Assembly (NCBI GenBank): GCA_947259375.1 | Contig: CAMYLZ010000027.1 | Coordinates: 62,001 to 126,000 of the forward strand | Reading direction: 5' to 3' | Source: an uncultured Parvularculaceae bacterium | GTDB taxonomy: Bacteria; Pseudomonadota; Alphaproteobacteria; Caulobacterales; Parvularculaceae | Length of the DNA stretch: 64,000 bases | Shown here: in pieces, positions 14,244 to 35,267 of the stretch | How positions within the stretch are numbered: position 1 is the stretch's first letter | How the letters are laid out: every line of letters begins with the position of its first letter | Position numbers and translations under genes: made by a program | The notes under the pieces: generated by a model | Databases searched by the model: none | Seen by the model: the letters and a program-made list of their open reading frames with translations, nothing else | Told to the model about the DNA's origin: nothing

Positions 14244-14370
14244 TACACAACCGACACGCACCGCCTTCGGGAATGCTTCGATGAGAATTGGTGCGAATGT
14301 CGGTTTTCTGTTAAAGCCCTGGCAATCGGCGATGGGTTTCCTAAAGACCATCGTCGGTTTGGAAAGCGAT

Positions 14371-17881: not shown

Positions 17882-18988
17882 TTAGCTTCGCCGCCGGGCC
17901 CGTCTGTGGTGCGGTAGATTCTCAATTAGCTTTAGACGCGCGTGCGTGTTTTTGAGTTCTTCCTCAAGGCGAGCGAGATGCGCAATGATGACAAAGCGAA
18001 AATATAACATCCCCGCCGCCATGATAAGCGCGATCATTAACCCCGCACCGGCGAACGTCGCCAATGACGCCGAGGGATGCATGATTGTTAGCCAGAGAAT
18101 GAAGAGGCTGATCAAAGAAACTGTGGCAAGAACGCCTTTTTGCACATAAGCCTTCAGGAAAGCCCGAATTTTACTTACTTGCGGCGCCTGTGGGGCGGGC
18201 GTTTCTGAATCAAGTTCGCTCAATGGTTCTTTTGCGGGGACGGGAACATCGCCCTCGCCGAGGAACCGGTCAACACCGATATAGGGAAAACATTCGACGC
18301 CTGACGCCTCGTTGCCATTAAAGACATCAAAGTCTGCGATGCGAAGCATTCGCGCCGCGCGCCGCCATGCTGTCAAATGAAGTTCGGGGCGGGGATTGGG
18401 CAGATTGAACCGGTCCCCGGTAGTCTGGTAACCGTCGAAGTAGTAGTTCGGATTGGCGCCTTCGCGCACAATTTCCAGTTCTATGCCGTCACGCCGAGTG
18501 GCTCCCTCAACAATTTCTTTATATTGCGCGTCGACGCCCAAAAGCACGATTTGATCGTAACCCATGCTTGCGGCCCAAAGCGCGGAATGGCTGCCAGTGG
18601 TAATCGGTTTGATGTTGAGGAAAGGCGACTTGTTGCTGACATCGTCATAATTGACGACGCGCGGGTTCTTCCCGGTAGGCCCCAACGCCTCGATCAGATT
18701 GTCGCGCAGCAAAAACCGCTGGATTTCCCCTTCATCTATCAGTTTGGCGATTTCTTCCTTGTGCGAAATCCCCACAACAAGGTCGAGACAGGCGTAGTAT
18801 CGCGGTCGCCAGCCGATTGAGCGCCAATGCCGGTAAGCCGCGTTGAGGCCGATGGTTGCATAATCTGATAGCGAATGCAGATCGACCATTGCCAGCGATG
18901 GTCCATTGCCGAGAATAAATGCTGTGCGGCTATCGACACGGACATTGTCGAGCTGATTAAAACGGTCTGTTGCTTCAACGGTGGTCAT
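17882..18988 (-). CDS. MptE/DUF115-like domain protein with membrane hairpin and C-terminal coil
   Basis: 368 residues. Residues 20-250 begin with FILGNGPSLAMVDL and continue with GLNAAYRHW and RPRYYACLD, then TGSHSALWAASMGYDQIVLLGVD. This pattern is seen in DUF115/MptE-like and sialyltransferase-related proteins of surface-glycan loci, so a role with nucleotide-sugars is plausible. Two membrane helices follow (about 288-335, VLATVSLISLFILWLTIM and FAGAGLMIALIMAAGMLYF). A charged tail rich in Leu and Arg ends the protein. It lies downstream of the Wzt gene and is probably co-transcribed with the exporter. The precise reaction is unknown. Confidence 0.6.
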   Translation of the reverse strand: MTTVEATDRFNQLDNVRVDSRTAFILGNGPSLAMVDLHSLSDYATIGLNAAYRHWRSIGWRPRYYACLDLVVGISHKEEIAKLIDEGEIQRFLLRDNLIEALGPTGKNPRVVNYDDVSNKSPFLNIKPITTGSHSALWAASMGYDQIVLLGVDAQYKEIVEGATRRDGIELEIVREGANPNYYFDGYQTTGDRFNLPNPRPELHLTAWRRAARMLRIADFDVFNGNEASGVECFPYIGVDRFLGEGDVPVPAKEPLSELDSETPAPQAPQVSKIRAFLKAYVQKGVLATVSLISLFILWLTIMHPSASLATFAGAGLMIALIMAAGMLYFRFVIIAHLARLEEELKNTHARLKLIENLPHHRRARRRS

Positions 18989-19074: not shown

Positions 19075-19827
19075 TTAATTAGCTCTTGTGGCCAAGCGAA
19101 ACTGTTGCAAGCCGTCTTCGACGCGGCCGTCAAACCGAATTCTCCCTTCGTGGAGCCATATTACCCGATCGCAAAAACTCTTGATCAACGGATCTGAGTG
19201 GGTAGCCATCACCAGAATTCCGGCGCTTTTCATCATCTGAAATATGCGCTGTTTGGCGCGTTGTTGAAATGCGGTATCGCCGGCGCCGAAAACTTCATCC
19301 ACCAGCAGGACTTCGGGCTGAATAGCGGTGGCGATGGCGAAACCGAGCCGCATGCGCATGCCGGCCGAGTAAAGCCTGATCGGCAAGTCAATGAATTCAC
19401 CGAGATCCGCGAATTCTATTATGTCGTCTTTGACGGCGGCTATTTGAGCGCGCGACAATCCGAGCGTGCGTGCGGAAAGAAAGATGTTTTCGCGCCCGCT
19501 CGCATTGTCCATCATGCCGACTGTTGCGGCGAAGAGAGTTGATATTTTACCCTGGGATCGAAAAGATCCTTCGGTCGGTGCGTAAATACCCGCCAATACG
19601 CGCAACAACGATGACTTACCTGCGCCGTTGACGCCAATTAAACCGACGTTTTCGCCGGATTTTATTTCAAGCGTAATGTCATGCAGCGCCTTGCAGTATC
19701 GCCCGCTTCCGCGCTGACCGATTCGATTGTCTGAAGCCGCTTTTGGAGCTGGCTTGAAAAGCGCGCTTAAGGAAGCCTCTCCGACCGGCAGGTTGAGGTC
19801 AACAGATGTCAGGCGCAGATAGCTCAT
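19075..19827 (-). CDS. Polysaccharide ABC exporter ATPase (Wzt/KpsT type)
   Basis: Cytosolic ATPase half of a capsule or O-antigen exporter, 250 residues. Walker A GVNGAGKSS, the variant signature YSAGMRMRLGFAIA and Walker B VLLVDEVFGAGD are the exact pattern of the Wzt/KpsT/TagH group rather than importers. It ends shortly after the nucleotide-binding domain and has no C-terminal carbohydrate-binding module. That suggests KpsT-like export that does not read a chain-end cap. It follows the permease by 40 bases. Confidence 0.92.
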   Translation of the reverse strand: MSYLRLTSVDLNLPVGEASLSALFKPAPKAASDNRIGQRGSGRYCKALHDITLEIKSGENVGLIGVNGAGKSSLLRVLAGIYAPTEGSFRSQGKISTLFAATVGMMDNASGRENIFLSARTLGLSRAQIAAVKDDIIEFADLGEFIDLPIRLYSAGMRMRLGFAIATAIQPEVLLVDEVFGAGDTAFQQRAKQRIFQMMKSAGILVMATHSDPLIKSFCDRVIWLHEGRIRFDGRVEDGLQQFRLATRAN

Positions 19828-19867
19828 GATACGAGGCCTTTTTCAGACGTCATTGGCGGGCGATAAA

Positions 19868-20665
19868 TCACAAGCTGTAGATTAATCGGTTGCGGAAAAC
19901 GGTTTGCATCCATATCGCCAACAGAAATCCGCCAAGTGATATAGTGCAAACGATTATCCATGCTTGAAGAGAAGGCATGCGTCCTTCGAGGGGTGCGCGC
20001 GCCAGTTCCAGAAAGTAGGAAATTGGATTGTATGTGGAAATAGTCTTTCGAATCCCGGCGTCGCCGCGCCATATGATTGGCGACGTAAAAAACAAAAATC
20101 TTACGAGAGATGGCACGAGAAAGCGTGCGTCACGAATCCGTGCCCCGATCAATCCTAGAATGACGAGGCAAGTATAAGAGAAAAATATTAGAAGGATGGA
20201 AAAGGGTACGTAAAGCAAAAGCAGCGCCGGGCTAATCAAATTGCCAAACAATACGATTAGGATAATGGGCACGGGTATCTGAAAAAGGGTGCGAAAAACC
20301 AGAAATGCGATTTTCCTTATCGTCAGGTAAGAAATGTCAGTGGGGACGTTTCGAATCAGCGAGGATTGAGACGTGAAATGAGTAGGACCCTCTACCAGGG
20401 AACTGGACAGAAATTCCCAAGCGTAAAAACCAAGGCCGAGATAAATCAGGTAGTCGCCGAACCCTTCTCCGAGGGCTTCGTGGAAGACAAGACCAAGCGA
20501 CAAGATCCAAAGAGCGAGCTGGAATGTCGCCCAAAGCGGCCCGAAATAGGATCTTCGGAAGCGGGAAATAAAGTCATACCAGCCAAGCTCGACAGCGCCC
20601 CGATACCGGGCGATGAAGTGATAGGCACGGGCAAGGTGCGGGGCGGAGGGCGTCGTGTTCGGCAT
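19868..20665 (-). CDS. Polysaccharide ABC exporter permease (Wzm/KpsM type)
   Basis: Inner-membrane half of the exporter, 265 residues, six predicted helices. The N-terminal amphipathic stretch (LGWYDFISRFRRSYFGPLWATFQL) and the late RDARFLVPSLVRFLFFTSPIIW and YNPISYFLELARAPL are hallmarks of the ABC2 type Wzm/KpsM/TagG permeases. With the ATPase downstream it makes a complete exporter for an undecaprenyl- or phosphatidylglycerol-linked glycan. The 371-base upstream gap contains a 12-G tract. Confidence 0.92.
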   Translation of the reverse strand: MPNTTPSAPHLARAYHFIARYRGAVELGWYDFISRFRRSYFGPLWATFQLALWILSLGLVFHEALGEGFGDYLIYLGLGFYAWEFLSSSLVEGPTHFTSQSSLIRNVPTDISYLTIRKIAFLVFRTLFQIPVPIILIVLFGNLISPALLLLYVPFSILLIFFSYTCLVILGLIGARIRDARFLVPSLVRFLFFTSPIIWRGDAGIRKTISTYNPISYFLELARAPLEGRMPSLQAWIIVCTISLGGFLLAIWMQTVFRNRLIYSL

Positions 20666-21036: not shown

Positions 21037-21696
21037 TTAGGCAGCCTTACTTTTCTTGCGCCGTTGAAACCAGCCGCCGGCGGCTACAGCGGAGCCGAAC
21101 AGCCAGACGGCGCCAGGGATTGGGTTCACCAGAACGTCGTCATCGTTATAGGCGGCGAAATAGGTGAATTCTTCAGTATTAATGCCGGCCCCAACGATGA
21201 TTGTGATTTCTCTGATGGCTTCGCCGATATCAAATCCGAATGACGAAAGATCGATAGTCAGCGCTTTGAGCGGCGCAACGCCCAGCATAACCCCTGTAAA
21301 GGCGAGACTGAGATCGTTTTGCGTGAAGCCGCCAATTTGCAGGGCAAAACTCTCTATGCCGTCGGGGACAAGGCCAAGCCCCGCAATAATCAGGTCATCC
21401 CCAGCGTTGTTGACAACGTCAAAGTCGAATCCAATTGTGAACGCACAACCATCGACGTTATTAGTGCAACGCACGCCGTCTAACAAAGAGCCGCTAATGG
21501 CGTCAGTCTGCGTAGCGACGCCTGTTCCGAATTTATCGAAGATTTCCGTTGTTCCGGAAATGGTTGTAATGAAACTTGCTGCATCTTCTTCGTTAACGGC
21601 ATGATCGCCGATCTGAATTGGTGCGGCAGTTGCAGAACCCCCGGCTGCCGCCAAGGCTAGCAGCCCGAATATCGCCAAAGAAATCTTGTACGTCAC
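21037..21696 (-). CDS. PEP-CTERM/VPLPA-like exported protein
   Basis: 219 residues from the GTG at 21696, which has GGGGAG 7 bases upstream; an ATG at 21759 has no ribosome site. The N-terminus is a signal peptide (TYKISLAIFGLLALAAAGGSATA). The C-terminus is a sorting tail: NPIPGAVWLFGSAVAAGGW, then basic QRRKK. That is the tripartite motif, hydrophobic helix and Arg/Lys cluster of PEP-CTERM proteins cleaved by exosortases. The middle is acidic with two Cys in a CTNNVDGC loop and otherwise unlike families I know. Such proteins usually depend on an exopolysaccharide locus, as here. No exosortase is in the window. Confidence 0.75.
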   Translation of the reverse strand: MTYKISLAIFGLLALAAAGGSATAAPIQIGDHAVNEEDAASFITTISGTTEIFDKFGTGVATQTDAISGSLLDGVRCTNNVDGCAFTIGFDFDVVNNAGDDLIIAGLGLVPDGIESFALQIGGFTQNDLSLAFTGVMLGVAPLKALTIDLSSFGFDIGEAIREITIIVGAGINTEEFTYFAAYNDDDVLVNPIPGAVWLFGSAVAAGGWFQRRKKSKAA

Positions 21697-21973
21697 CAGC
21701 TTTCTCCCCACACGCTTCAACTTTCTCCTCGGGAGCGCCACTGTGATCGCTTCCCTCATTCGATTAGGAAAAATTTAATACATATTGCGTGACACGGGCA
21801 ACGCGTATAGGTGAAAAAAGATTGAATTAACTAAACAAACCGCGCGCATTTCCCGCTAGAATGGTTTCATCGGCGTTGGGTTAGCGTAAAGGGTGTATTC
21901 TTTGAAGGCTCTTAAATCAAAATAGGGTTAGTTTTGGGGAATCTCCGGCCAACCGAAATCAACTGCGCTTGAA

Positions 21974-22978
21974 ATGGAAGATTTTGAACATATCGGCGTC
22001 GTGTCGGGCTTGTTGGATCTGGTCAATTTCCTCGCCGCCTGTCGCGTCTGGTCCAGGGAGCGTGTGCCATCAAAGCCAAAGATCACCGCGATTTTATTCG
22101 GCCATGAAGCCTCATTGCCGGAGCGTTTGCGCTCCGAGTTTGAATTCACGATCAGGCGTGCTTTTCCATATGTCGATCTGGAGATTATCCCGCCTAGTTG
22201 TTTGAATGGGAACAGGTTTGACGAGAGCGACGCGTCAATCGGGATAGATTTGAAATCGGCTAGCCGCCGCATCGTGTACGGAAACGCTATCCACAAAAAA
22301 CTCCATCGGGAGTTCTTTAAATATCTCAACCCAGACGAGTTTGTATTTTTTGACAACGGGCTTTCAAGTTACGCAGATCACCCAACGGATGTGGCAACTG
22401 AGTTTGTGAAGCTCGATATCCCGTTTCCTTCCCTTGCGTGCTATTCTCTAGCGCCGCCGTTGCCGATCCCGGATTATCTTAAATCGATTTCCAATTATGA
22501 TCTGACACATAATGATTTTTCCAGCCTCTTTGAGTGCTTGCGAAGGGTCGATGCACAAGCGCTGCCTCACGACTGTCTGCCGTCGCGTGTTGTAATCGGC
22601 ACAAGCCTATTCCGTACAAAGCGGATCCGTTGGGAGGAAGAACGAGCCATTTATTTAAAACTTTTTGCGAAGCTCCGAGAAGAAGAAGACTCTCGAATTC
22701 TATTTAAAGCACACCCTCGAGCAAGCAACCGGCCATTAATTGGACCAGGTGACGGCGTTGACGTAGTTGATAATAGCATTCCGGTAGAAGCGTTTGCCAA
22801 ACCTGACGAAAAAGGAGTTGTATACAGTATCTCATCGACGTCGTTATTGACGATGGAAAAGTATTTCGGCTGGAGGGCCTATAGGATTGAAACCGAGGCG
22901 ACGCGCGCGCTTCTGGCTGATAGCCCGCATTTGTCAAAGGTCAAAGAGGTTGAATCGATTTCGCTTTCTATGGCTTAA
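21974..22978 (+). CDS. Polysialyltransferase-like capsule glycosyltransferase
   Basis: 334 residues, no signal peptide. FVFFDNGLSSYADHP near residue 120, LFKAHPRASNRP near residue 250 and the later VVYSISSTSLL match the three signature blocks of the alpha-2,8-polysialyltransferase family (acid-rich DG loop, HP motif, SS motif). Family members add sialic or related acidic sugars to capsule chains in the cytosol. The gene is visibly AT-richer than the housekeeping genes of the window, which fits acquisition by transfer. The chosen ATG has no strong ribosome site. Assignment rests on motif pattern alone. Confidence 0.6.
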   Translation: MEDFEHIGVVSGLLDLVNFLAACRVWSRERVPSKPKITAILFGHEASLPERLRSEFEFTIRRAFPYVDLEIIPPSCLNGNRFDESDASIGIDLKSASRRIVYGNAIHKKLHREFFKYLNPDEFVFFDNGLSSYADHPTDVATEFVKLDIPFPSLACYSLAPPLPIPDYLKSISNYDLTHNDFSSLFECLRRVDAQALPHDCLPSRVVIGTSLFRTKRIRWEEERAIYLKLFAKLREEEDSRILFKAHPRASNRPLIGPGDGVDVVDNSIPVEAFAKPDEKGVVYSISSTSLLTMEKYFGWRAYRIETEATRALLADSPHLSKVKEVESISLSMA

Positions 22979-23045
22979 CTGCGTTATGCGCAGTTCGCGT
23001 TGTCGGGCTTCCAGAATAATTTGCTGAGAAAAGTTGGTATTTTGT

Positions 23046-23606
23046 ATGTCTAACTTTCTGCTGAAAGATCCGAATTGCGTACTGATCCATATTCCAAAGA
23101 CTGGCGGTTCGTCGATCCGCCACGGAATTTGGGCGTCCAATTACGATGGCCCAGCATTTGCCGAAATTCCGTCCGATTGGCGCAGTTTTTTCAAGTTCGC
23201 TTTTGTTCGACACCCGTTGGACAGATTGGTTTCTGCTTGGGCGGATTTTGCGCAGCTTCGCAATTACAAGGGCGACATAGAGGATTTCGTCGCTATCGTT
23301 ATGGACGAGACGATAATCTATGACGAACGCCGCAAGACCATGGAAGAACGCATCCGTCATCACGCCATTCCTCAAACGCACCGATTCAATAATTTGCAGG
23401 AGGCGGATTTTGTCGGCCGTTATGAAAATTACAACGCTGATTTGGCGTACATTCTTGAGCGTGTTGGCAAGAGCGTGAATACCGTACCTGCATTGAGAAA
23501 AACAAACCGAGGACATTACCACGACTATTTAAAGGGTGAATCGCTGCAAAAAATCGCTGATTATTACGCGGACGATTTTCGGCTGCTCGGATATGAGCGT
23601 CCATAA
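23046..23606 (+). CDS. Sulfotransferase family 2-like protein
   Basis: 186 residues. HIPKTGGSSIRHGIW near the N-terminus is the 5'-phosphosulfate loop for PAPS, and FAFVRHPLDRLVSAW is the 3'-phosphate site; this spacing is standard for sulfotransferase family 2. The product would transfer sulfate to a sugar hydroxyl in the cytosol. It is short for the family, which suggests a minimal version. The ATG at 23046 is favoured over an upstream TTG. It follows the polysialyltransferase-like gene by about 70 bases and is probably in the same transcript. Confidence 0.85.
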   Translation: MSNFLLKDPNCVLIHIPKTGGSSIRHGIWASNYDGPAFAEIPSDWRSFFKFAFVRHPLDRLVSAWADFAQLRNYKGDIEDFVAIVMDETIIYDERRKTMEERIRHHAIPQTHRFNNLQEADFVGRYENYNADLAYILERVGKSVNTVPALRKTNRGHYHDYLKGESLQKIADYYADDFRLLGYERP

Positions 23607-23701: not shown

Positions 23702-26700
23702 TTACCAGTCGAAATTTTCCGCGTAACCTAAATCGATTAGCGCCTGGCCGTACCTTTCCTTAAATACGCTCCGCAGCTTTGACGTGAAATGCTGTCGCCA
23801 CGGCCCGCTTTCCGGATTGGCGGCGGTTCGCGTGTAGTCGATCCCTGCAAGGTCTGGCACGCAGAGAAACTCCGATATAGTGGCCAAGCTCGTTTGGGAG
23901 GCTCGAGAGAAATCTTCGATCTTAATGGTCAGGATGCGTTCATCATCAAAATCCGCCAGCAATTGCGTTTCGATGATTTGTTTTGAAATATTATCAAGTT
24001 CGTACAACAACCCTTCTTCCTCGGACAGCTCACGTAGTATCGGCTTGTCATTCGCAAGCTGGTCCCAAATCCATCCGCCATATTCGGACAAGTGGTCTCC
24101 TTTATGATGGAAATAGTTTGACACAAGCACCTGCCTTGGATCACGCAAAATCCGGATTCCTTTCCAATCCTTTGTAGAAGCTTTGATTCGGTTGAGAGAG
24201 CGTGCGGTGGCGTTGGAAAATAAAACTACGTCGCGGCTCTCTTCGCCGAGCCCGTTAAAGTCCATATTGCAAAGGTCGAGATCGTCGCTCATCGAATAGT
24301 GAAACGGCGGCTCCTTGATTTCATATTTTCGCACTTGCGAGCCGGTCGCCTCCGCCGCAATGGCGAATACTTCATTACGGAAAAAACGTGAGGCGCATTT
24401 GTGATGTCCGAAGAAAACTAGTGTTGTGGGCGCGTTTGGAAAACGCATAGCGCCGATCTGCCGCTCGCTGGCGGCAACGCGTTCGCGTAGCAATTGCGCT
24501 TCTCTATTACGAACGCTGATTTCTTTTCGAGAGGAAGTGGCGGCGGCCTCCGCGTTTTTAGCGAGAGTCGCCGCCTTATTGATTTCGGCTCTTAATGCGT
24601 CGTCAGCTGATTTAGAGGTTTCAATCTCGGCCTTGAGCGCTTCTCTTGCGCTCTGGGCGGACTGCGAAGAGTGTGCGATTGCACCGGCAAGCGCCTTTTC
24701 CACGGCGGATTTTGCGTCCGCAATTTCGCTCCGCAATACTTCACCGTTAACTTGCGAAACTTCTTTGGCGGTGGCGATCGCGTCCTGCAGCGCTTTTTCG
24801 GCGGTCGCCTTGGCAGCGTCAATCTCGGATTTGAGATCTATACCGTTAGATTGCGCTGATTCTATCGTTGCCGCGACTTCGGCCTTAAGCGATTGTTCGA
24901 CCGCCGCCACAGTCGCACATAAGTCACTCCGCGTAGCAGTTATTTTCTCCTCAAGGGCCTCTCGCAAGATTGCATTCTGGTCGGAGAGATCATTCAGTCT
25001 ACGGCGCAATTCCGCCGCAACGCGGTCTTGTCGCGCTACGCGCGCATTGAGCGCTTTTGTTTCGCTCCCGGACTTTTTTTGCAATGTGCGCAACGCCGCG
25101 GTTTCCGCGCCAAGCGCTGTTGCAAAATGAAAGACGCGGAATCCGAGATAAAAGAGTGCGAATAGGACGGCGGAGAATCCCGCGGCGATCCAGAGCGCGC
25201 CTCGGTAATCAGAAAGCGCAGGAAGGAGACCCAGCGCCGCAAGCCCTGTAATCGCCACAAGGCCGGGAACGGTAAAGGCGCGCCGCCGCCAAAGGCCGGC
25301 GAGCGCGCGCCGTGCGAACCGGAGTATGGCGAAAACCTGCGGTGAGCGTTTTCGCAGCCGCTCGCCAAAGGCGGCATAGAGGGGAGGCTTCAGCTTGGTC
25401 GATGCGTCCGTCGCGAACTCCGACATCGCTCGCCTCATAACGCCAACAACTTCTTTCCGCGTCAGTTTATAGCTCGGAGGAAACGGACCGCAATGAAGCG
25501 TGATGACGGAATTTGCAGCCGACCGAAGCTTTCGGGCATCCAATCGTGTTTTCGTTGCGTCGAGCAAGCTTCCAAGATGGGTCTGGCAGAATGTATATCC
25601 GGAAAAGATCGGGGAATCGCAGAAAAAGAAGGGCTGTATTCCGCCGCGCGTGCTTAGTATTGTTGCAATGGTATGGTCCTCATATATGTAGTCAGAAAAT
25701 TCAATTTTGTTCGTGACCGCCGCGTCTATTTCGCTGGTCGCGCGCTTAGACAATCCATAGATGCCGCCGCACGCCCAGTAAGTCGGCCCTCCATTGAACT
25801 TGAAAGGCTTGTTAAAATATTTCGAGCTCTCGCTGGTTTTGCCAAAGTGCCATGTCTCGCTGGGTTTCGATCCCCGCACCGACGGAACTCTCCTTCCGAA
25901 ATAGTCGCTTTCTACATTAGACACAGCTGGATAAAACAGGTCGAAGTTTATGACGACGTCGTCATCGACTTTGAAGAGATAGCGATACTCGAAATTTTGG
26001 TGTGCGAAGGCGATCGCCTTCAAGACTTTTTCGGGAAGATCCTCATAAAGGTCGCCGGCGGCCAGGTGGAGAGTGTCGGTCTTACGATTGTATAATGTTT
26101 TCTTTGCGCCACCGACGACGAAGATCGCCTTATCGCCCTTGCGCAGATGCTTAGCGTAATAATCCTTTAGGACGTCGCGCCGCTCCTTATATGCGACACA
26201 GGAAATGATCAGGAACAGAATGGGACCGTTGATTTCTTTTTCACTTAACGGTTTCCTCTCGGCCTTTTCGACATTCGTCACCTTTTGTGAAGGTGCCGTC
26301 TTGGTCTTTACTGGAGTAGATTTTACTGACTGCTCCACGAGGACGCGGAGCGCGTCTTCTTCCGGATCGCGAAGAAACCCGATCAAATTGCCCCATGTCC
26401 TGCTGAGATCGAGTTCGGGCGTATAGCGAATGAATCGGCGCCAATCATGCGCGACGCCATAGCGAACGATTGGATACCATTCGCTGACATATACGAAATA
26501 TCCTTGAGCGATCATCGCATTCACGAGGTCATCTGTCGAGTAGCCAAGAGGGACGGTCTTCCTATCTTCAAATTCAGCAAGAACAACCTCCGGCCTGTCT
26601 TTCTCCCAAGGAAAGCCGTCGAGCACGAACTTATCAAATCCTTCAACATCAATTTTCAGAAAGTCGACATGCTTGATTCCGGTTTTCTGGTAATAATCCT

Positions 26701-29290
26701 TGAGCGTTGTCGTCTGGACTTCCGCAATCTTTTTGTGGCCGTCGGTGAATGCAGAAAGCCCGCTTATTCCTGTGCTTTCATCGCTTGCATAAAAAGGAAC
26801 CGTAAGCCCCGCCTTGTCAGAGACGGCCTCCTCATTCACGATAAGCTGCGGGTTTGATCCCCAAGCTTTCAATAGCTCGCGGCGGTTATTGGGGTCGGGT
26901 TCAAAAGCATGAACCGTCCAGCCCTTACGCAGATAAACATCGCAGCTATTTCCAAAATTCACACCGACGTCAATCATCAGTTCGCCGCGATCACCGAAAT
27001 AGCGGGCGATCATTTCCTCTTCGTTGATCCGCGCCTTTTGTGCGCGGGAAAACTCACCAAAGATGACCCTTTCGCGCTCTACCTCGAACGGCTGCTTTGC
27101 GTCCGTCTGCACAAGGGACTCTCGCAACATCGTTGGCTGCGTGCGTTTCACTTCCGACAAAACGGTGCCGACCGCATCCGCAACCCGCTCGGCCACCGAG
27201 GGCCCGTCTGGAACGTAATTCGTGTGATGTTTCAGGAAGGGCAGGGCGCGCTCGCGGAAATCGACGCCCGCCGCAATATCGGCGCAGACTTTGTGCAGCG
27301 CCGCGACCAATTCTTCTTCGGTGCTCGCGACGTCGAATGCACCAAGCGGTTCCTTGAATTTATCGACTTTCTCGCCATGGGGATTGAAGTATATTGCCGG
27401 CTTGCCACTCGCGAGCGCCTCGAGAATTCCGGTAGCGAAGCGGCTAACAAAAACCGAACACTTATCGATTAGTTCGTATTGAGAGAAGTCGGACACCGGA
27501 AGTCCGCGCAAGTTCCCCTTGTCCGCCGGGTGCCGCGTGATCTTCCAGTCGAAACCCGTGGCGATGAACGCATCTCTCGCTTTTGTGATGAATTGATCGC
27601 GCGCATCCTCGAGTACGCCATAAGTAAAATTGACGTTCAGGATCGCGAAGGGCTCCCCTGGAAACGCCGGAGACCTTTTGGACAACTTCTCAATGATCGG
27701 CAGGCCCGCGATCATCGTCTTGCGGTCGGCAAAGTACTTCCTGTCGTTTTCTCCCGCAAGGAAAACATAATCGCATTGTCGATAGGGTAACGACGATCGG
27801 TGCTTTGAATCAACGCGCAGAAAATCATTGATGCCCTCTACAACGCCGACGGTGGGCAAGCCGAGAGTACGCCGATAATCCAAAGCGTCGGAAAAATCTT
27901 TGTTCCAGTCGTGAAAGACGAGGACAAGCTTTGCGGTCGAGAGCCAGTCGATCTCGTAAGGTCCCTTGTCGACCTTAATATACTCCGCATCCAGGATAAC
28001 GTGCATTTCCGCTTCGGGAAATTGCCGTCTTCCGCCTTCGACAAATCCTGAATTGTCAAGAATGACGCTACGATGCCCCCTAAGGTGGAGCTCGCGCGCG
28101 AATGATGCGGCATTCCGAATGTGGTAATCGACCTGCCCGATGATGACGATCTTGTCTTTCAGCCTCTGCGCCATTGGCGTCGGGGCGGTGCCATTCTTGA
28201 GATGGGCCGAGGGCCCCACCTCCGCGGAAGGGCTGTCCGGGAAGGCGCAGGTTGCTTCATCCATCCGAGTCCAGGACGGTTGAAAATCCCTTCGAACCCC
28301 ATTGCGATGAACCAGGAATATTTCACTGCGACGTTTGGACAATTCGTCCAGTGACATGGTTTGATTGAACACGCCGTCATAGGTTTGCTTTGACGCTTCT
28401 ACATCGGTTACATCAAATATCATCCCTGTGGCGCGCTCATAACCATAGCCTTGATTATGAATCAGCCATGTGAACAGAAACTGGTCATGCCGGTGACCGT
28501 TAAAATGGTCATGGATGCGGTCGATTCCAGCGTCATCACAGTACCGGATAAATTGTTGGATCCGCTCCGACCGTTCGGCTGCCGGCGTGTGTGAAAACTT
28601 ATATCCCGTAATCAGGTGAGGCCGCGCCTGAGCCAAGTCAAATGCTTTAGCAATTACGTCATTATAGAATGCGCTGTTTAGACGGAAACCGAAAATGTTC
28701 GGCCGCAGAAGCGGTTTTGCAAGGGTGCTGTTTGGAATATCCAGTTCATCGACAACATCGTCCGGGGAAAAATTGAAAAGCCGAATTTTGTCGCCGGTTT
28801 TTTTTCCCACCATCCGGTCAGTCATGTCAGTGATATAAAAATCCTTTTCCTGAATGATCTTCCAAACGTCTGACAAGCTCCGATTTACGAGTACGCCAGC
28901 ATCAAGATACAAAAGCAACGTCTTATCCAGGTTGGTCTGAATATAATTTTGCGCCAAGTGCATCATATCGATTTTGAAGGCGTAACTCTTGATGTAATCC
29001 TCTGTCTTTTCGCGAAATGGAATTTCGATGATATTAACTCGCGGAATAACGGCCAGCTCGTTACGTTGAGCCTCATCAAGGCCGATATCATAGACATGGA
29101 TTTGGTCGAATTCTTCAAAAGCATTACGATTCAGGGATTCGATCAGCACTATCAAGGCGTCGAAAAACCGAGCGTTGCAGGACGTCAAGATGTAGCGGTG
29201 GAGCGTTTCTCGGCTTCCGGAACGGTGCAGGATTGCTTCTGTTTGTTTGGTTTGTACTGTCATTTTTGCCCTATGCATTTTTGTCATCAC
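23702..29290 (-). CDS. Giant multidomain glycan enzyme: GT-A-like, GT-B-like, FkbM methyltransferase, GT31-like, membrane hairpin, coiled coil, sulfotransferase
   Basis: 1862 residues in one uninterrupted frame. Domains in order: 31-340, a nucleotide-sugar transferase-like GT-A fold (HRYILTSCNARFFDAL, LLYLDAGVL); 378-690, a GT-B-like domain (KIVIIGQVDYHIRNA, SRFATGILEALASGKPAIYF); 760-975, an FkbM methyltransferase (MIDVGVNFGNS, FLKIDVEGFDKFVLDG); 1020-1280, a GT31/galactosyltransferase-like domain (FKVDDDVVINFD, a DXD site, and YWACGGIYGLS). Two membrane helices lie at 1340-1386. A coiled coil at 1395-1612 holds three 33-residue repeats. Residues 1620-1862 form a sulfotransferase (FFGHHKCASRFF for PAPS, ILRDPRQVLVSNYFHH). 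Both ends should face the cytosol. Start could also be the Met at residue 10. Substrates are unknown. Confidence 0.85.
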   Translation of the reverse strand: MMTKMHRAKMTVQTKQTEAILHRSGSRETLHRYILTSCNARFFDALIVLIESLNRNAFEEFDQIHVYDIGLDEAQRNELAVIPRVNIIEIPFREKTEDYIKSYAFKIDMMHLAQNYIQTNLDKTLLLYLDAGVLVNRSLSDVWKIIQEKDFYITDMTDRMVGKKTGDKIRLFNFSPDDVVDELDIPNSTLAKPLLRPNIFGFRLNSAFYNDVIAKAFDLAQARPHLITGYKFSHTPAAERSERIQQFIRYCDDAGIDRIHDHFNGHRHDQFLFTWLIHNQGYGYERATGMIFDVTDVEASKQTYDGVFNQTMSLDELSKRRSEIFLVHRNGVRRDFQPSWTRMDEATCAFPDSPSAEVGPSAHLKNGTAPTPMAQRLKDKIVIIGQVDYHIRNAASFARELHLRGHRSVILDNSGFVEGGRRQFPEAEMHVILDAEYIKVDKGPYEIDWLSTAKLVLVFHDWNKDFSDALDYRRTLGLPTVGVVEGINDFLRVDSKHRSSLPYRQCDYVFLAGENDRKYFADRKTMIAGLPIIEKLSKRSPAFPGEPFAILNVNFTYGVLEDARDQFITKARDAFIATGFDWKITRHPADKGNLRGLPVSDFSQYELIDKCSVFVSRFATGILEALASGKPAIYFNPHGEKVDKFKEPLGAFDVASTEEELVAALHKVCADIAAGVDFRERALPFLKHHTNYVPDGPSVAERVADAVGTVLSEVKRTQPTMLRESLVQTDAKQPFEVERERVIFGEFSRAQKARINEEEMIARYFGDRGELMIDVGVNFGNSCDVYLRKGWTVHAFEPDPNNRRELLKAWGSNPQLIVNEEAVSDKAGLTVPFYASDESTGISGLSAFTDGHKKIAEVQTTTLKDYYQKTGIKHVDFLKIDVEGFDKFVLDGFPWEKDRPEVVLAEFEDRKTVPLGYSTDDLVNAMIAQGYFVYVSEWYPIVRYGVAHDWRRFIRYTPELDLSRTWGNLIGFLRDPEEDALRVLVEQSVKSTPVKTKTAPSQKVTNVEKAERKPLSEKEINGPILFLIISCVAYKERRDVLKDYYAKHLRKGDKAIFVVGGAKKTLYNRKTDTLHLAAGDLYEDLPEKVLKAIAFAHQNFEYRYLFKVDDDVVINFDLFYPAVSNVESDYFGRRVPSVRGSKPSETWHFGKTSESSKYFNKPFKFNGGPTYWACGGIYGLSKRATSEIDAAVTNKIEFSDYIYEDHTIATILSTRGGIQPFFFCDSPIFSGYTFCQTHLGSLLDATKTRLDARKLRSAANSVITLHCGPFPPSYKLTRKEVVGVMRRAMSEFATDASTKLKPPLYAAFGERLRKRSPQVFAILRFARRALAGLWRRRAFTVPGLVAITGLAALGLLPALSDYRGALWIAAGFSAVLFALFYLGFRVFHFATALGAETAALRTLQKKSGSETKALNARVARQDRVAAELRRRLNDLSDQNAILREALEEKITATRSDLCATVAAVEQSLKAEVAATIESAQSNGIDLKSEIDAAKATAEKALQDAIATAKEVSQVNGEVLRSEIADAKSAVEKALAGAIAHSSQSAQSAREALKAEIETSKSADDALRAEINKAATLAKNAEAAATSSRKEISVRNREAQLLRERVAASERQIGAMRFPNAPTTLVFFGHHKCASRFFRNEVFAIAAEATGSQVRKYEIKEPPFHYSMSDDLDLCNMDFNGLGEESRDVVLFSNATARSLNRIKASTKDWKGIRILRDPRQVLVSNYFHHKGDHLSEYGGWIWDQLANDKPILRELSEEEGLLYELDNISKQIIETQLLADFDDERILTIKIEDFSRASQTSLATISEFLCVPDLAGIDYTRTAANPESGPWRQHFTSKLRSVFKERYGQALIDLGYAENFDW
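24548..24844 (-). repeat. Three 33-residue (99-bp) coiled-coil repeats inside the giant gene
   Basis: Protein residues 1483, 1516 and 1549 each begin a similar block: GIDLKSEIDAAK, GEVLRSEIADAK and REALKAEIETSK. The period is 33 residues, that is three 11-residue hendecads, a spacing seen in rod-like coiled coils. They link the membrane hairpin to the sulfotransferase domain and may act as a stalk. Confidence 0.7.
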
Positions 29291-29298
29291 CGCACGAC

Positions 29299-29394
29299 GC
29301 TACTTCAGCGTGATCATGACTACTCGCTGCTTTAGCGTGGGCTTGTCTCGCTGCTTTAGCGTGGGCTTGTCTCGCTGCTTTAACGTGGGCTTGT
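29299..29394. repeat. Tandem 24-bp repeats upstream of the giant gene
   Basis: Three tandem 24-base units lie at 29323-29346, 29347-29370 and 29371-29394. The first two are identical and the third differs at one base. A degenerate fourth unit (16 of 24 matches by eye) precedes them at 29299-29322. They fill most of the gap between the GT-FkbM stop and the start of the 1862-residue gene, so they lie in its leader or promoter. Confidence 0.85.
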
Positions 29395-29418
29395 CAAGGT
29401 TGGGCTTTATGCTGTGTC

Positions 29419-31485
29419 CTAGCGGGCCGCTCGCAGGATGGGCGAAAGAAAAATGCGCAACACCCGCGCCGCGACCGGAAATCTCAGCCAGAACCAGTCG
29501 GCGGCCTTGCGATAGGTCGAGCGCGCGGGAACAGGAGCGACTGTTTCGATTGTCGCCCTGGCGCCGACCCCGGCAGCGCCGCCGCTACGGGCGGCGATAA
29601 ACGCGCGCTCGACGACATCGATAGGCGGGTCTTTGGCAAATGCAATGAGGTTTCCCCATGCGTCCGGCGCCGCCGCGCAGGGGTGTTTACGCAGCCGGCG
29701 CCAGCTGTGTCGTTGGCCGTATTGTTCAATGGAATGCCATTCGCTGATATAGACCGTATAGCCCGCGCCTTCGAGGCGCGCGATTAAGTCTTGTGCGGTA
29801 AAGCCTCGCGCGCGCGTCTTGGCGTCTTCAAATTCGGCGAGAATAGCGAGCGGTTTGGTGCGGTTGAGGTCGAGGCCGTCGAGAACGTCCATTTCATGGC
29901 CTTCGACGTCTATTTTCAGAAAGTCTACCGAAGTGATTGCGTTTTTCGCGATGAATTCGTTGAGCGTGACGACATTGACGCGCGCGCCGCCGACATGACT
30001 TTCATGAAACGGCGTCAGCGTGCTGATGCCGCTGCTGACGCCTGAGCTGTAAAATGCAGCGCCTTTTTGTGCGCGTGCGCCAAGCGCGTCAGGGGAAATT
30101 GAAACGCGCTTGTCGCGACCCCAGCCGCGTTTCAGGATCTTGCGGTTTGTCCGATCGGGCTCGAACGCCCATACGCGCCAGTCCGCGCAAACGAAGTCTG
30201 CAAGCGAGCCGCCATGATGCGCGCCGACATCAATCATGACGCCTCGGCGTTTATCTGCGTTCAGGGTTTCAAAAACAAAGCGGCATTCATCCAATTGCGC
30301 CTTTTCCTCGCGCGTTGCTTCTTCTCGCAGCGCGCCAGGGCGGCGCACCGGCGATGACAGCGCCAGCCGCAGGCGTCCGCGCATTTCATCAAGATCAAAT
30401 TTCGAAAAGGCAAGCTGGCGCCCTGCTTGGCCCATTGTCGCGCGCCGCCCCGGATCGCCGGCGAGGGCGGCGAGCGCTGCGGCAAGCGCATCCGGGTTGT
30501 TTTCCGTCACCACATCCGCAGCGCTCGATTCGGCGAGTATGGCGATGGATTCGAGATCGCGCGGGCCGAAGGCCAGGATCGCGGCGCCGGCCGCGAGTGC
30601 TTCCGGCGTCTTGTTGGCGAAGGAGTAGCGTAAATAACGCCTGGTCGCGTTGTCGAAGTTATAGGCGATCAGGACAATGTCTGCGTCCACAAGCCATTGG
30701 CGATAGTCCTTCATCGGCATTGTGGCAGGTTCAACCAGGACAGATGGCAGTTCGTTAAAGCTCTGGCCAAATTGGTCAAACCAGTATTGTTGCGTGCGGC
30801 CTTCGAATTGGATGTGGTGGCCCTCCGCTGCAAGGCGGGAGACGCTGCGGGCGGCGGCGAATACGCTGTCTTTTGTCGTATCCGGCGCCAGCGACCCGGC
30901 ATAGCGCACTTTAACCGGCTCCCGGTCTGGGGAGCGCGTGCGGGTCGGCCAGTCTTTTTCATTGACGCCGTTGCGGGCGACGCTGAAGGGCGTCTGATAA
31001 CGCTCGCTAAATGCTCGCGCCATGCCTTCGGAAATTGCGAAGTTGGCGGCGGACCGGGCGAATAGCTTACGCAAATCGGCGTCCCAGGCGTTGTGCTGGG
31101 CGGGGGCGCGCTCGCGCAAGCGTTCTGGCCAGTCGTCCATTATCCACATGGCGAGTGGAGCGGGCGAGGCTGTGATTGCCTCCATTGCGAAGCGGTGGAG
31201 CATGGGGCGGTCATCGACCGGCCGATAGAGGATCACTTCCGGACGGAATGCATCGATCAGCGCTTTCGTTTTGGCGCTGTCGGCGGAAAGCGGGCGCGCA
31301 TCCGCCACGCCATCGCTCACGCCCAGCGCCTGGGGCCCAAGCGCCTGGACGTGCAAGAGGGCGTCCTGGCGCCAGTTCGCAAAATAGGCATGTTTTAGCG
31401 TGCTGGTCGCAGCGCTGCCTGAAAGCGGCGTCATGTCGAAGAGCAGCAGTCTGGGGTCAGTGACGTCTTGTGATTTTGCGGTCAT
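29419..31485 (-). CDS. Glycosyltransferase-FkbM methyltransferase fusion
   Basis: 688 residues from the ATG at 31485. Residues 10-380 form a GT-B/GT4-like transferase (NGVNEKDWP, FANKTPEALAAGAAILAF). Residues 410-620 form an FkbM-type SAM methyltransferase (MIDVGAHHGGSLADF, WAFEPDRTNRK, VDFLKIDVEGHEMDVLDG). The FkbM half is clearly a paralogue of the one inside the neighbouring giant protein: both carry the late block YxSEWxxIxxYGxxHxWRR and WGNLIxFxxDP. A C-terminal hydrophobic, basic segment may touch the membrane. It probably adds a sugar and O-methylates it or a neighbour. It is upstream of the giant gene on the same strand. Confidence 0.82.
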   Translation of the reverse strand: MTAKSQDVTDPRLLLFDMTPLSGSAATSTLKHAYFANWRQDALLHVQALGPQALGVSDGVADARPLSADSAKTKALIDAFRPEVILYRPVDDRPMLHRFAMEAITASPAPLAMWIMDDWPERLRERAPAQHNAWDADLRKLFARSAANFAISEGMARAFSERYQTPFSVARNGVNEKDWPTRTRSPDREPVKVRYAGSLAPDTTKDSVFAAARSVSRLAAEGHHIQFEGRTQQYWFDQFGQSFNELPSVLVEPATMPMKDYRQWLVDADIVLIAYNFDNATRRYLRYSFANKTPEALAAGAAILAFGPRDLESIAILAESSAADVVTENNPDALAAALAALAGDPGRRATMGQAGRQLAFSKFDLDEMRGRLRLALSSPVRRPGALREEATREEKAQLDECRFVFETLNADKRRGVMIDVGAHHGGSLADFVCADWRVWAFEPDRTNRKILKRGWGRDKRVSISPDALGARAQKGAAFYSSGVSSGISTLTPFHESHVGGARVNVVTLNEFIAKNAITSVDFLKIDVEGHEMDVLDGLDLNRTKPLAILAEFEDAKTRARGFTAQDLIARLEGAGYTVYISEWHSIEQYGQRHSWRRLRKHPCAAAPDAWGNLIAFAKDPPIDVVERAFIAARSGGAAGVGARATIETVAPVPARSTYRKAADWFWLRFPVAARVLRIFLSPILRAAR

Positions 31486-31884
31486 CAAAAAATATACAAA
31501 GTTTAATGGTGTGGCATAGCTAAGGCGTAAGGGCGGCGGCGCTCTGGTTTCAATATAACGAAAGGAGCCAATATTCCATGCTTCCGCCTGCCAGGCACCT
31601 AGGCCCATTCGGCGTGTGGGTAAATGAATTGTGATCTCGTCGGATCAAGTTGGGTGTTTCGAGCGTCTGTCCAAGCGGTCGCTCTTTATGAATTTCGATG
31701 TGAATTTTTTGCACCGCCGTCCTGATTGTCGCGACTTTTATTAAGGCCGTGCGCCAAAAAGGGAGAGCGCATCGCTATTATGCGGTTCGAGCGGGGCGCC
31801 GGGTTCACGAAGTGATGAATTTGCGGCATAAGTCGAAAGCTAGATAGAGCAGCATGCTTTAATTTGGGATCAGAACGGGCCTCT
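31486..31884. other. Divergent promoter region with a possible leader peptide
   Basis: 399 bases between the minus-strand GT-FkbM gene and the plus-strand GT2 operon. No full gene was seen. One 18-codon frame at 31578-31634 (plus strand, ATG to TGA) has a good AAAGGAG ribosome site 10 bases upstream and could be a leader peptide, but such small frames occur by chance. Confidence 0.35.
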
Positions 31885-32844
31885 ATGACGCAAGGGCGGG
31901 TAAGTATTGTTTTTCGTTCGCTGAATGAAGAAAAATGGTTCAGCGAGGCATTGAGTGCATGCAAGCGGCAAGTGATAGACGGCTATGATGTCGAAATCGT
32001 CCTCGTTGATTCCGGATCGACCGATCGCACGATTGAGATCGCAGAGGCGCATGACTGCCGTATTGTTCATATTGCAAAAGCGGATTTTACCTTTGGGCGG
32101 TCGTTAAATTACGGCTGTGAGGCGGCGACCGGCGATTTTCTCGTTTTCATATCCGCCCATTGCGTACCTGCTCATGAAAAATGGCTGGCCAATCTCATTG
32201 CTCCGCTTGCAGACAATCGCGCCGACTATGTCTATGGGCGACAAGTTGGTCATGACGTTACACGATATTCCGAGCGTCAGGTCTTCGCGCAGTATTTTCC
32301 GGAGCATGATAAAATCCCTCAGGCGGATTTCTTTATCAACAATGCCAACGCCGCCATTCGGAAAGATTTGTGGGCGCGTTACAGGTTCGACGAGGCGGTT
32401 ACCGGGTTGGAAGACATGGTGCTCGGCAAGTCCGTGATGAAAGACGGCGCACGGATCGGTTATGTAGCGGATGCGCCAGTTTTTCACATTCACGAGGAAT
32501 CCTTCGCGCAGATCCGAAGGCGTTACTATCGTGAGGCGCTGACTTTGCGCGAAATCATGCCGGAAGTGCATTTTCATATCGGTGACTTCGTGCGATTCTT
32601 CGTTGCCGGCGTGTTCCACGACTTTTCCGAGGCATCGGCCGCCCGGCGCTTCTGGACAGCTGCGCCAGAGATCGTCATGTTCCGGCTGATGCAATATTGG
32701 GGAACCTATCTCGGTCATAATGAGCACCGGATTCTTTCCCGCGCCCAGAAAGAAAGCTACTATTATCCGCGTCCGCACAGAGCGCGGCCGCAAGAGCGCC
32801 GCGCCGGCGCGGCGCAGCGCGCTGAAGAGGCGCCCGCCGAATAA
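31885..32844 (+). CDS. Glycosyltransferase, GT2
   Basis: 319 residues. SIVFRSLNEEKWFSEAL opens a GT-A domain; VDSGSTDRT, GRSLNYGCEAATGDFLVFISAHC and the TGLEDMVLGK block (ED catalytic region) are typical of GT2 transferases of the rhamnosyl/glucosyl group. A C-terminal region rich in Arg and aromatic residues may bind the membrane. The ATG at 31885 follows the open frame from 31864, whose first residues look spurious. It leads a plus-strand operon whose next gene makes a CMP-sugar, so it may use that donor, although GT2 enzymes more often use UDP, GDP or dTDP sugars. Confidence 0.82.
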   Translation: MTQGRVSIVFRSLNEEKWFSEALSACKRQVIDGYDVEIVLVDSGSTDRTIEIAEAHDCRIVHIAKADFTFGRSLNYGCEAATGDFLVFISAHCVPAHEKWLANLIAPLADNRADYVYGRQVGHDVTRYSERQVFAQYFPEHDKIPQADFFINNANAAIRKDLWARYRFDEAVTGLEDMVLGKSVMKDGARIGYVADAPVFHIHEESFAQIRRRYYREALTLREIMPEVHFHIGDFVRFFVAGVFHDFSEASAARRFWTAAPEIVMFRLMQYWGTYLGHNEHRILSRAQKESYYYPRPHRARPQERRAGAAQRAEEAPAE

Positions 32845-32870
32845 ATTTTTACAATGAGGATGAATAGACG

Positions 32871-33590
32871 ATGATTGGCGACGGCAAGCGCCTGACGGCG
32901 CTGTTACCCATGAAAGCGCACAGCGCCCGCGTGACTTCAAAAAATTTTCGCATGATTGCGGGCAAACCGCTGTTTCGTTGGGTGCTCGACGAAATGGCGG
33001 CGCAGAACACGATTGACCAGATCGTTATCAATACGGACGCGCGCGGAATTCTCGCTGATAACGGGCTTGCAGACGGCGATTACGACGGCAAGGTCATGAT
33101 CCGTGATCGCAAATCGGATATCTGTGGCGACTTTGTTTCGATGAATCTCGTGCTTGGTGATGATGTAGAAAACGTGGCTTCGGATTATTATTTGATGACG
33201 CATACGACCAACCCGCTTTTGCGCGGGAAAACGATCGATGCGATGATCGAAGCGTTTCTGGACGCGGAACGCAAAGGCGAGGCCGATACGCTGTTCACGG
33301 TGAATCGGCACCAGACGCGGTTTTACACGCCGGATGGCGCCCCAATCAATCATGACCCGGCGAACCTCGTCCGCACGCAAGATCTGCCCCTCTATCTCGA
33401 AGAGAATTCCGTATGCTATCTGTTTACTGGCGAGAGCTTTGCCAAGACCGGCGCCCGCATTGGCGAGAGGCCGGTTTTGTTTGAAACGCCGCGGCTCGAA
33501 TCGGTCGACATTGACGAGCCGTCGGACTGGTATATGGCGGAATCGCTTTTGATGCGCGTCGCCGCTGGTGAAGCGCTGCCGAAGGAATAG
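32871..33590 (+). CDS. Acylneuraminate-type cytidylyltransferase
   Basis: 239 residues. LLPMKAHSARVTSKNFRMIAG is the CTP-binding start of the CMP-sialate/CMP-acidic sugar synthetase family, with KPLFRWVLDEM and YYLMTHTTNPLL as further matches; the late ESVDIDEPSDW carries the metal-binding Asp pair. It should activate a nonulosonic or similar 2-keto acid sugar. No NeuB-type synthase is in the window, so the sugar it uses is unknown and need not be sialic acid. The ATG at 32871 follows the GT2 stop by 26 bases; the next gene starts 4 bases after its stop. Confidence 0.85.
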   Translation: MIGDGKRLTALLPMKAHSARVTSKNFRMIAGKPLFRWVLDEMAAQNTIDQIVINTDARGILADNGLADGDYDGKVMIRDRKSDICGDFVSMNLVLGDDVENVASDYYLMTHTTNPLLRGKTIDAMIEAFLDAERKGEADTLFTVNRHQTRFYTPDGAPINHDPANLVRTQDLPLYLEENSVCYLFTGESFAKTGARIGERPVLFETPRLESVDIDEPSDWYMAESLLMRVAAGEALPKE

Positions 33591-33594
33591 CTTG

Positions 33595-34539: not shown

Positions 34540-35267
34540 CAAGAGCCGTGCTCATCACCGGTGCGGCCGGCGGTATCGGTTCGGCGCTGGTCACGGTTTT
34601 CTCGGCCGCTGGTTGGCGGGTTATCGCTACTGATCTCGCGGGCTCCGGCGGCGATGTATTTATTGCCGAAGATATCTCTCGGTTTGCGTCGGATGAGGCG
34701 GCGCTGGGCGCCTTTTCCAGCGGCGTGCGAAATGCGCTGGAGGGGGCGTCGCTGGCGTGCATTGTCAATAATGCGGCTGTTCAGCGGCTTGGCCGTATCG
34801 ACCAATTGAGTGCGAAATCAATTGCTGAAACATTCAACGTCAACGTAATCGCGCCGATGTTGTTGGCGAAAACATTCCTGTCTGAACTCGAAGCGGTGAA
34901 TGGGGCGATCGTCAATGTCGGATCGGTGCATGCGCAGGCGACGAAACCGGAATTTTCCGCATATGCAACCTCGAAGGCCGCTCTTCACGGCTTGACACGC
35001 GCGCTTGCGGTCGATCTCGGGCCGAAAATTCGCGTCAATACGCTGGCGCCGGCGGCGACGGCGACACAAATGCTTAAAGCGGGCTTTGAAGGCAATGAAA
35101 CGGGATTGGCCGCGCTCGAAGCCGTGCATCCGGCGGGCCGCATCGCGACGCCGGAAGAGATCGCCAGGATTGCGCTGTTTCTGGCTTCGGATGAGCCTGC
35201 ATTCTTGACTGGGGCGACCATTTACGCCGATGGCGGCGTTCTTTCGCGCCTTCATGATCCCTTATGA
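34536..35267 (+). CDS. Short-chain dehydrogenase/reductase
   Basis: Classical SDR of 243 residues. TGAAGGIGSAL is the NAD(P)-binding turn, NNAAV the structural motif, and S-(x)-YATSK the Ser/Tyr/Lys catalytic set (VGSVHAQATKPEFSAYATSKAAL). The ATG overlaps the previous stop by 4 bases (ATGA) and its own stop overlaps the next start the same way, so the genes are translationally coupled. Likely oxidises or reduces a sugar-acid hydroxyl or keto group in the same pathway. Confidence 0.9.
   Translation: MTRAVLITGAAGGIGSALVTVFSAAGWRVIATDLAGSGGDVFIAEDISRFASDEAALGAFSSGVRNALEGASLACIVNNAAVQRLGRIDQLSAKSIAETFNVNVIAPMLLAKTFLSELEAVNGAIVNVGSVHAQATKPEFSAYATSKAALHGLTRALAVDLGPKIRVNTLAPAATATQMLKAGFEGNETGLAALEAVHPAGRIATPEEIARIALFLASDEPAFLTGATIYADGGVLSRLHDPL

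Follow-up and report, generated by a model that had tools for sequence, protein, structure and literature searches.

The window, a stretch of 64,000 nucleotides from an uncultured Parvularculaceae bacterium, was found to contain a single ORF for an 1862-residue protein, which we regard as a somewhat probable one-polypeptide polysaccharide assembly machine, where a chain would be built, capped with sulfate at the end of a rod and exported. The GT8-like, GT-B and GT31 modules together with the FkbM module would extend and decorate a lipid-linked surface glycan. A membrane hairpin would hold these catalytic modules at the cytoplasmic face of the inner membrane, with both ends of the protein in the cytoplasm, and the rod past the hairpin would keep the C-terminal sulfotransferase distant from the growing end. 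Only a chain long enough to reach the sulfotransferase would be sulfated, the sulfate would halt its growth, and the finished chain would leave through the nearby KpsM/KpsT-type exporter. The features of the window that bear on this proposal are listed in Table 1.

Table 1. Features of the large ORF and of its surroundings in the window (positions are those of the window)
Feature	Position	Strand	Evidence
MptE-like protein	17882..18988	-	PF01973, below cut-off; 58% identical to G044, same place relative to exporter
KpsT-like exporter ATPase, 250 aa	19075..19827	-	Pfam ABC_tran; 71% identical to G044 gene
KpsM/Wzm-like ABC exporter permease	19868..20665	-	Pfam ABC2_membrane; 65% identical to G044 gene adjoining a relative
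Polysialyltransferase-family protein	21974..22978	+	Pfam (PF07388)
Separate Sulfotransfer_2 gene	23034..23606	+	Pfam
Whole ORF, 1862 aa	23702..29290	-	Single uninterrupted frame; FkbM and GT31 above Pfam cut-off
Sulfotransferase domain of the PAPS-dependent type (residues 1615-1862), the apparent cap or end enzyme	23705..24448	-	Pfam, alignment, PDB profile, Foldseek
Helical, coiled-coil-like rod, residues 1403-1614, without proline, faint 33-residue repeats	24449..25084	-	Repeat analysis, AlphaFold
Anchor module, residues 1303-1402: basic juxtamembrane helix and two-helix membrane hairpin	25085..25384	-	Alignments, hydrophobicity, AlphaFold helices
GT31-like domain with DDD motif, residues 1030-1285	25436..26203	-	Pfam PF01762 1.5e-7; B3GALT6 E 0.065
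FkbM methyltransferase domain, residues 748-980	26351..27049	-	Pfam PF05050 8.1e-19; local profile
GT-B-fold domain, residues 378-700	27191..28159	-	AlphaFold and Foldseek
GT8-like GT-A domain, residues 25-330	28301..29218	-	Pfam below cut-off; LgtC match; homologues
Upstream gene for a 729-aa protein with GT-B and FkbM	29419..31608	-	Pfam

The ORF was found in one full-length copy, without internal stops, in its own genome of 3.2 Mb. It starts with a GTG at 29290, an ATG follows directly after, and the true start is uncertain by a few residues. A sequence-only reading of the same DNA had described a fusion of 1862 residues in one frame; this was borne out by the single uninterrupted ORF and by relatives with the same kind of fusion. 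Its list of domains (GT-A-like, GT-B-like, FkbM, GT31-like, two membrane helices, a coil and a sulfotransferase) was also supported, the GT8-like part being weak. In the Pfam scan, the FkbM match at residues 774-931 (68.8 bits, cut-off 22.7) and the Galactosyl_T/GT31 match at residues 1054-1218 (31.9 bits, cut-off 23) were above the Pfam cut-off, whereas the GT8 match at residues 34-158 (20.0 bits, cut-off 24.3) and the Sulfotransfer_1 match at residues 1705-1809 (17.9 bits, cut-off 22) were below it.

The GT8-like part, the weakest of the domain calls, matched LgtC at E 0.039 in a profile search and had homologues in the loci L046, L047 and L059 at 25-28% identity. GT8 enzymes usually carry a D-x-D motif; at the corresponding place D-A-G was present in all four aligned sequences. 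Residues 370-746 had no credible family in Pfam. Their AlphaFold model, made from a 5-sequence alignment (mean pLDDT 79.9), took a GT-B-like fold, and in Foldseek it resembled GT-B transferases and the UDP-GlcNAc 2-epimerases that share this fold; the best match was an epimerase (E 3.6e-11), and the TM-scores ranged between 0.33 and 0.59 among the 50 matches listed. When 299 genomes were searched, the closest match of the GT-B module was the hairpin protein of G200, followed by a frame of G044 that is cut by the contig end; the other matches were shorter ORFs. The sole match of the GT31 module besides itself was the ORF adjoining the hairpin gene of G252, with 44% identity. The two genes beside the large ORF that had been noticed earlier, the sulfotransferase gene and the GT-FkbM gene, were both recovered in the Pfam scan, and the FkbM region of the latter shared 39% identity with the one in the large ORF. 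Just upstream of the large ORF, a short gap contains three near-perfect direct repeats of 24 bp (97% matches) at 29323-29395.

The anchor module of about 100 residues was the part common to most large relatives. Its basic helix has the consensus RSPRLF...RRAL.G.WRRR and is followed by two hydrophobic segments at residues 1341-1359 and 1366-1384. The AlphaFold model of residues 1290-1862 (pLDDT 79.5, pTM 0.56) contains the hairpin, helices and the sulfotransferase domain; the modelled helices lie at about residues 1357-1481, 1487-1507 and 1522-1616, and confidence is low in the stretch around 1480-1529. The 33-residue repeats that had been noticed in the coil are real and faint: the self-identity at an offset of 33 was 24%, against a maximum of 21% in 30 shuffles.

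The sulfotransferase call in the window protein was secured by its relatives, since the same domain passed the Pfam cut-off in five loci (L033, L038, L110, L118 and L121; below it in L109 and L111) and a profile of 14 sequences of this part found only sulfotransferases in the PDB (10 of 10 matches at E up to 0.01, with E 0.001-0.006). The motifs GHHKC and RDPR, which we take to be the PAPS-binding motifs 5'-PSB and 3'-PB, were invariant across the 14 sequences. The top four Foldseek matches of the sulfotransferase model were sulfotransferases, all of them weak (E 0.009-0.03, none at 0.001 or better). The domain was 70% identical between G044 and the window, and the last 274 residues of the G006 protein were 69% identical to those of the window protein. 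An APS kinase is encoded in the window's genome, and therefore the supply of PAPS is plausible.

In our survey, the window protein was matched in 37 of the 62 genomes of the same taxonomic family. Many of these matches covered the FkbM part only, in ORFs of about 300 aa, and a dozen or so fell in larger ORFs (up to 2223 aa) that share differing parts with the window protein. No close relative of the whole protein was found in the scan of named genomes, and residues 1290-1862 gave no match in a plasmid search. A profile of the hairpin had matches in 29 of the 398 genomes of the order, the best 25 of them in frames of 886-2391 aa, and with a wider profile two more families of the order gave matches, one in 11 of 105 genomes and the other in 9 of 137. 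The class-wide hairpin search matched 5 of 385 genomes, namely the window's own and four others with weak matches (E 2.5e-4 to 8.1e-4). The scan with an alignment of the hairpin-to-sulfotransferase part found 32 loci; two alignments that mixed unrelated domains were left out of modelling and counts. The module map was drawn with local profiles for 39 hairpin ORFs, some of them truncated at contig ends and three of them encoded by a single genome (G788); L146, which overlaps L114, and the relatives L052-L059 are outside the map. Family members served to build the local profiles, and the module counts thus lean on our own delimitation.

Before the hairpin, an MptE-like module was found in 28 of the 39 ORFs, FkbM in 18, GT2 in 16 and GT-B in 13; the MptE-like module had no match in the window's own protein with Pfam or the local profiles. 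Among seven loci examined outside the order (L052 and L054-L059), similar layouts were seen. The protein of L055, from a Pseudomonadales MAG, contained MptE, GT-B, FkbM, two hydrophobic segments and a sulfotransferase, and that of L059, from a Pseudomonadaceae MAG, contained GT2, GT8-like, MptE, two hydrophobic segments and Methyltransf_24, followed in the locus by KpsM, KpsT and separate sulfotransferases. Two Stappia loci (L054 and L056) had one hydrophobic segment and Methyltransf_24 followed by a separate sulfotransferase gene, and L052, from a Sphingobium MAG, had MptE, a coil and a sulfotransferase without hydrophobic segments. The hairpin profile had no match to the anchors of the loci examined outside the order. 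By comparison of these sequences, the layout recurs across the order and, in forms whose anchor is divergent or missing, also appears in some other proteobacteria, few in number.

The fusion is no assembly accident, to judge from the gene sequences, because many relatives carry the same kind of fusion. An accidental or degenerating fusion of tailoring genes that are unrelated and do not work together is very improbable to us, even with an exact module order seen nowhere else among the hairpin ORFs and a GT8-like part that lacks the canonical DxD; the frame has no internal stops, the same layout occurs in many species and the sulfotransferase motifs are conserved. The sequence-only reading was aware of no described bacterial protein with this domain order, and the exact order was absent from the other 38 hairpin ORFs. 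The protein is not a one-off, as the layout recurs across the order.

An end enzyme was found in 27 of the 39 hairpin ORFs: a sulfotransferase in nine, Methyltransf_24 in 13 and a third, methyltransferase-like domain in five. The third type was recognised by a short motif pattern that we wrote from family sequences; in Pfam it gave Methyltransf_24 below the cut-off (E 0.012) in L045 and nothing in L117. The end enzyme followed the coil in all 27 and there were never two in one protein. The stretch between hairpin and cap in these ORFs was proline-poor and varied from 106 to 950 residues, as a ruler might, and heptad periodicity was present in nearly all of them (z 3.2 to 20.9; weak in L038, z 1.5, a point against the model).

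No recognised end enzyme was present in the other 12 hairpin ORFs. These were the GT-B, FkbM, hairpin and coil proteins of L041-L043, the proteins of L137 and L138 with hairpin and long coil only, the ORF of L123 that is cut by its stretch, the short GT2, MptE and hairpin ORFs of L141, L144, L145 and the second ORF of L114, the 355-aa MptE-hairpin ORF of L109 and the 160-aa hairpin ORF of L125. The proteins of L041-L043, with hairpin and coil and no end enzyme, speak against the cap model. The short proteins of L141, L144 and L145 (707-740 aa, without coil or cap) belong to genus g23 of family f5. In L122, L138 and L139 the hairpin lies near the N-terminus and is followed by about 880-950 residues of coil, with no catalytic array recognised; Methyltransf_24 ends the proteins of L122 and L139, and the layout of all three resembles a separate terminator protein, as in WbdD. 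In L036 a 517-aa FkbM protein (14139-15692, genome G021) ends inside the juxtamembrane helix of a hairpin module, directly before KpsM; it is a truncated or split hairpin gene about 6 kb from the intact one.

To judge from the sequences, what sets close relatives apart is either a swapped end enzyme or the length of the coil. G001 and G006 shared 83% identity over about 1600 residues, with 97.5% in three 40-residue windows before residue 1460; past this residue the hairpin was 45-62% identical and was followed by an unrelated coil and cap, Methyltransf_24 in one protein and a sulfotransferase in the other. G244 and G252 were 69% identical over residues 1-1339, which comprise the catalytic array, the hairpin and most of the coil, and their end enzymes were a sulfotransferase and the third type. 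G117 and G782 were 73% identical over the full length with coils of 138 and 234 residues, respectively, and tandem two-heptad repeats were present in G782. Between the window and G044, which is of the window's genus, the module before the hairpin differed, GT31 in the former and GT2 in the latter. Coil repeats of 37 residues were also seen: L117 and L118 gave strong signals at offsets 37, 74 and 111, and L120 weaker ones.

We tentatively propose, at somewhat less than even confidence, that catalytic array, coiled-coil ruler and cap are exchangeable cassettes of lineage-wide single-chain assembly lines, with the window member ending in sulfate and the coil length tuned by tandem heptad repeats. 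If this is true, bacteria alter their surface sugars by recombining whole enzyme cassettes inside a single protein, and the logic of anchor, ruler and export stays the same. The natural pairs G117/G782, which differ mainly in coil length, and G244/G252 and G001/G006, which differ at the protein end, would be ready-made experiments on the ruler model.

A different role is given to the end enzyme if the sulfotransferase is a tailoring enzyme that acts on internal residues of each repeat unit, the rod only tethers or oligomerises the protein, and something else, such as the exporter, determines the chain length. This explanation is less likely in our judgement, yet a serious one. Sulfotransferase genes of the same family stand alone beside Methyltransf_24-ended proteins in L054, L056, L059 and L113, and further stand-alone genes were found in L057, where the neighbour is a 716-aa protein matched by Methyltransf_24, and, on its own, in L058; the enzyme is therefore not always a cap and may act at other places of the glycan. 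PMC11641403 and PMC11766843 appear to deal with sulfated capsules of marine origin and with sulfotransferase genes, and the window's short KpsT, without a cap-binding module, would agree with tailoring as well. Against it stands the end slot, which takes one enzyme type at a time and lies beyond a rod of variable length, and the other tailoring enzyme, FkbM, was always within the array, before the hairpin in 18 of the 18 ORFs that have it. Because FkbM always precedes the hairpin and a separate end slot holds one of three enzyme types or none, end capping with chain-length control fits the sequences better than tailoring of every unit. The sequence-only reading had placed all the enzymes in one assembly line on a membrane scaffold; the anchored line stands as an idea, whereas the sulfotransferase as one more step of that line fits less well than end capping.

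The export step of the capping model would depend on the adjoining exporter genes. KpsM and KpsT were both found near 18 of the 27 capped ORFs, 0-11 kb away, and also beside L047; KpsM-like genes numbered only two in the window's genome, a background figure from this one genome. No exporter was found near the other nine capped ORFs in the fetched stretches, which counts against the model. Six of these (L117, L118, L120, L121, L140 and L142) come from one genus of family f5, and about 20 kb more per side in L117, L118 and L120 contained no KpsM and only large ABC proteins of 619-691 aa; the other three (L045, L139 and L143) lie at contig ends. The window KpsT had no Wzt_C match in Pfam and is, with 250 aa, too short for a C-terminal carbohydrate-binding module. 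This also speaks against the cap model, as it is with such a module that the prototypes recognise capped chains.

The exporter ATPase was short in all six sulfotransferase-capped loci (249-278 aa) and long in nine of 12 Methyltransf_24-capped loci (420-603 aa), the short ones being L039, L047 and L122. An exporter was present for 11 of the 13 Methyltransf_24 ORFs, and L047 makes 12; this locus was missed by the hairpin profile, has two hydrophobic segments and Methyltransf_24, and was counted in the Fisher tests but is outside the set of 27 capped ORFs. In L039 about 10 kb separate the exporter from the ORF, and the contig stops shortly past the ORF; L036, whose end enzyme is of the third type and whose ATPase is short (274 aa), was in no Fisher test. 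With 2x2 counts compiled by hand, the Fisher p for ATPase length against cap type was 0.009; it was 0.017 with four loci outside the order (L052, L054, L056 and L059), 0.002 without L039 and 0.067 within family f2 alone. That ATPase length tracks cap type is suggestive only, because the association weakens within one family and with the added loci, and the species are related. Wzt_C was matched at E below 1e-4 in six of ten ATPases of Methyltransf_24-capped relatives, one of them above the Pfam cut-off, and in six of the eight long ATPases scanned (L136, the ninth long one, was outside the scan).

Genes with KdsA-, KdsB- and KpsF-type domains and nucleotide-sugar genes were present in the window, which is an envelope-polysaccharide setting. 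A row of GT2, CTP-transferase (KdsB-like), 2-hydroxyacid dehydrogenase, SDR and SMP-30-like genes was observed at 31864-36160; it may make a CMP-linked ulosonic-acid-like sugar, and close homologues of its GT2 and CTP-transferase genes are found again next to many hairpin loci. No Rfam family reached the gathering threshold in the window. Between the exporter and the large ORF, positions 21037-21759 encode a 240-aa protein without a Pfam match, whose C-terminal tail is presumably a PEP-CTERM-like sorting motif.

Such a neighbour would suit a protein that polymerises no chain and modifies something else, either a glycoprotein or an oligosaccharide that is short and of fixed size. Maf-type enzymes glycosylate flagellin, and the MptE-like (Maf-family) modules found by local profile in most hairpin ORFs would likewise fit protein glycosylation. 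We hold this quite improbable, since the exporter genes nearby are of the capsule/O-antigen type, the Kdo-pathway-type domain genes lie in the window and the window protein itself is without an MptE-like match.

The polymerase, ruler and terminator model of Klebsiella and E. coli, as given in excerpts of PMC11231755 and PMC3482155, places the terminator at the distal end of a coiled coil, so that only sufficiently long chains are capped, and capped chains are exported. As in those systems, an end enzyme was found past a proline-poor, mostly heptad-periodic stretch in 27 of the 39 hairpin ORFs, the window included, and an ABC exporter is in the same locus (19075-20665), whereas the cap-recognising ATPase module is absent. 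The glycosyltransferase modules adjoin the hairpin; their polymerase role is putative. Within the literature searched, to which the terminator census cited in PMC11231755 did not belong, no example of a sulfate cap in a coiled-coil-ruler system was found; among the open-access papers searched none combined Wzt, sulfotransferase and coiled coil, and nothing on multidomain proteins with FkbM and sulfotransferase seemed fitting. The portion available of a review of capsule chain length (PMC12220298) contained neither 'sulfat' nor WbdD. According to an excerpt of PMC13171606 (2026), the putative methyltransferases encoded in group 3 capsule clusters of E. coli have coils of variable length.

WbbB of Klebsiella pneumoniae O12 and Raoultella terrigena has polymerising glycosyltransferases, a coiled coil and an end enzyme in one chain (PMC11231755, in part), as proposed for the window protein, and belongs to an ABC-exporter pathway, as the window locus has an ABC exporter (parts of PMC11231755; see also PMC9587256). 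In WbbB, as far as these excerpts go, the beta-Kdo terminator is N-terminal, the glycosyltransferases are C-terminal and the cap is a Kdo sugar, whereas the window protein has the reversed order, an internal two-helix hairpin anchor and a sulfotransferase end enzyme. WbdD, which works with WbdA in E. coli O8/O9a, has an end enzyme spaced from the membrane by a coiled-coil ruler (PMC3482155 and PMC11231755, in part), as proposed for the window protein, and methyltransferase end enzymes also occur in the hairpin family. It differs, according to the same partial texts, in a polymerase that is a separate, recruited protein, a C-terminal membrane-associated amphipathic helix and a methyl or methyl phosphate cap. 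In Klebsiella O7 ORF6, a methyltransferase, a kinase, a coiled coil and two GT2 modules are joined in one large protein, so that terminator, coil and polymerase modules are fused as proposed for the window protein; the polarity is opposite, the cap is methyl phosphate, and an internal hairpin is unmentioned in the part of PMC11231755 concerned. By this analogy and from its sequence, the window protein appears to follow WbdD and WbbB in its logic of polymerase, ruler and terminator, in reversed order, with an internal hairpin and with a sulfotransferase as the apparent cap, and a sulfate cap, if true, would be an added chemistry among the known terminators.
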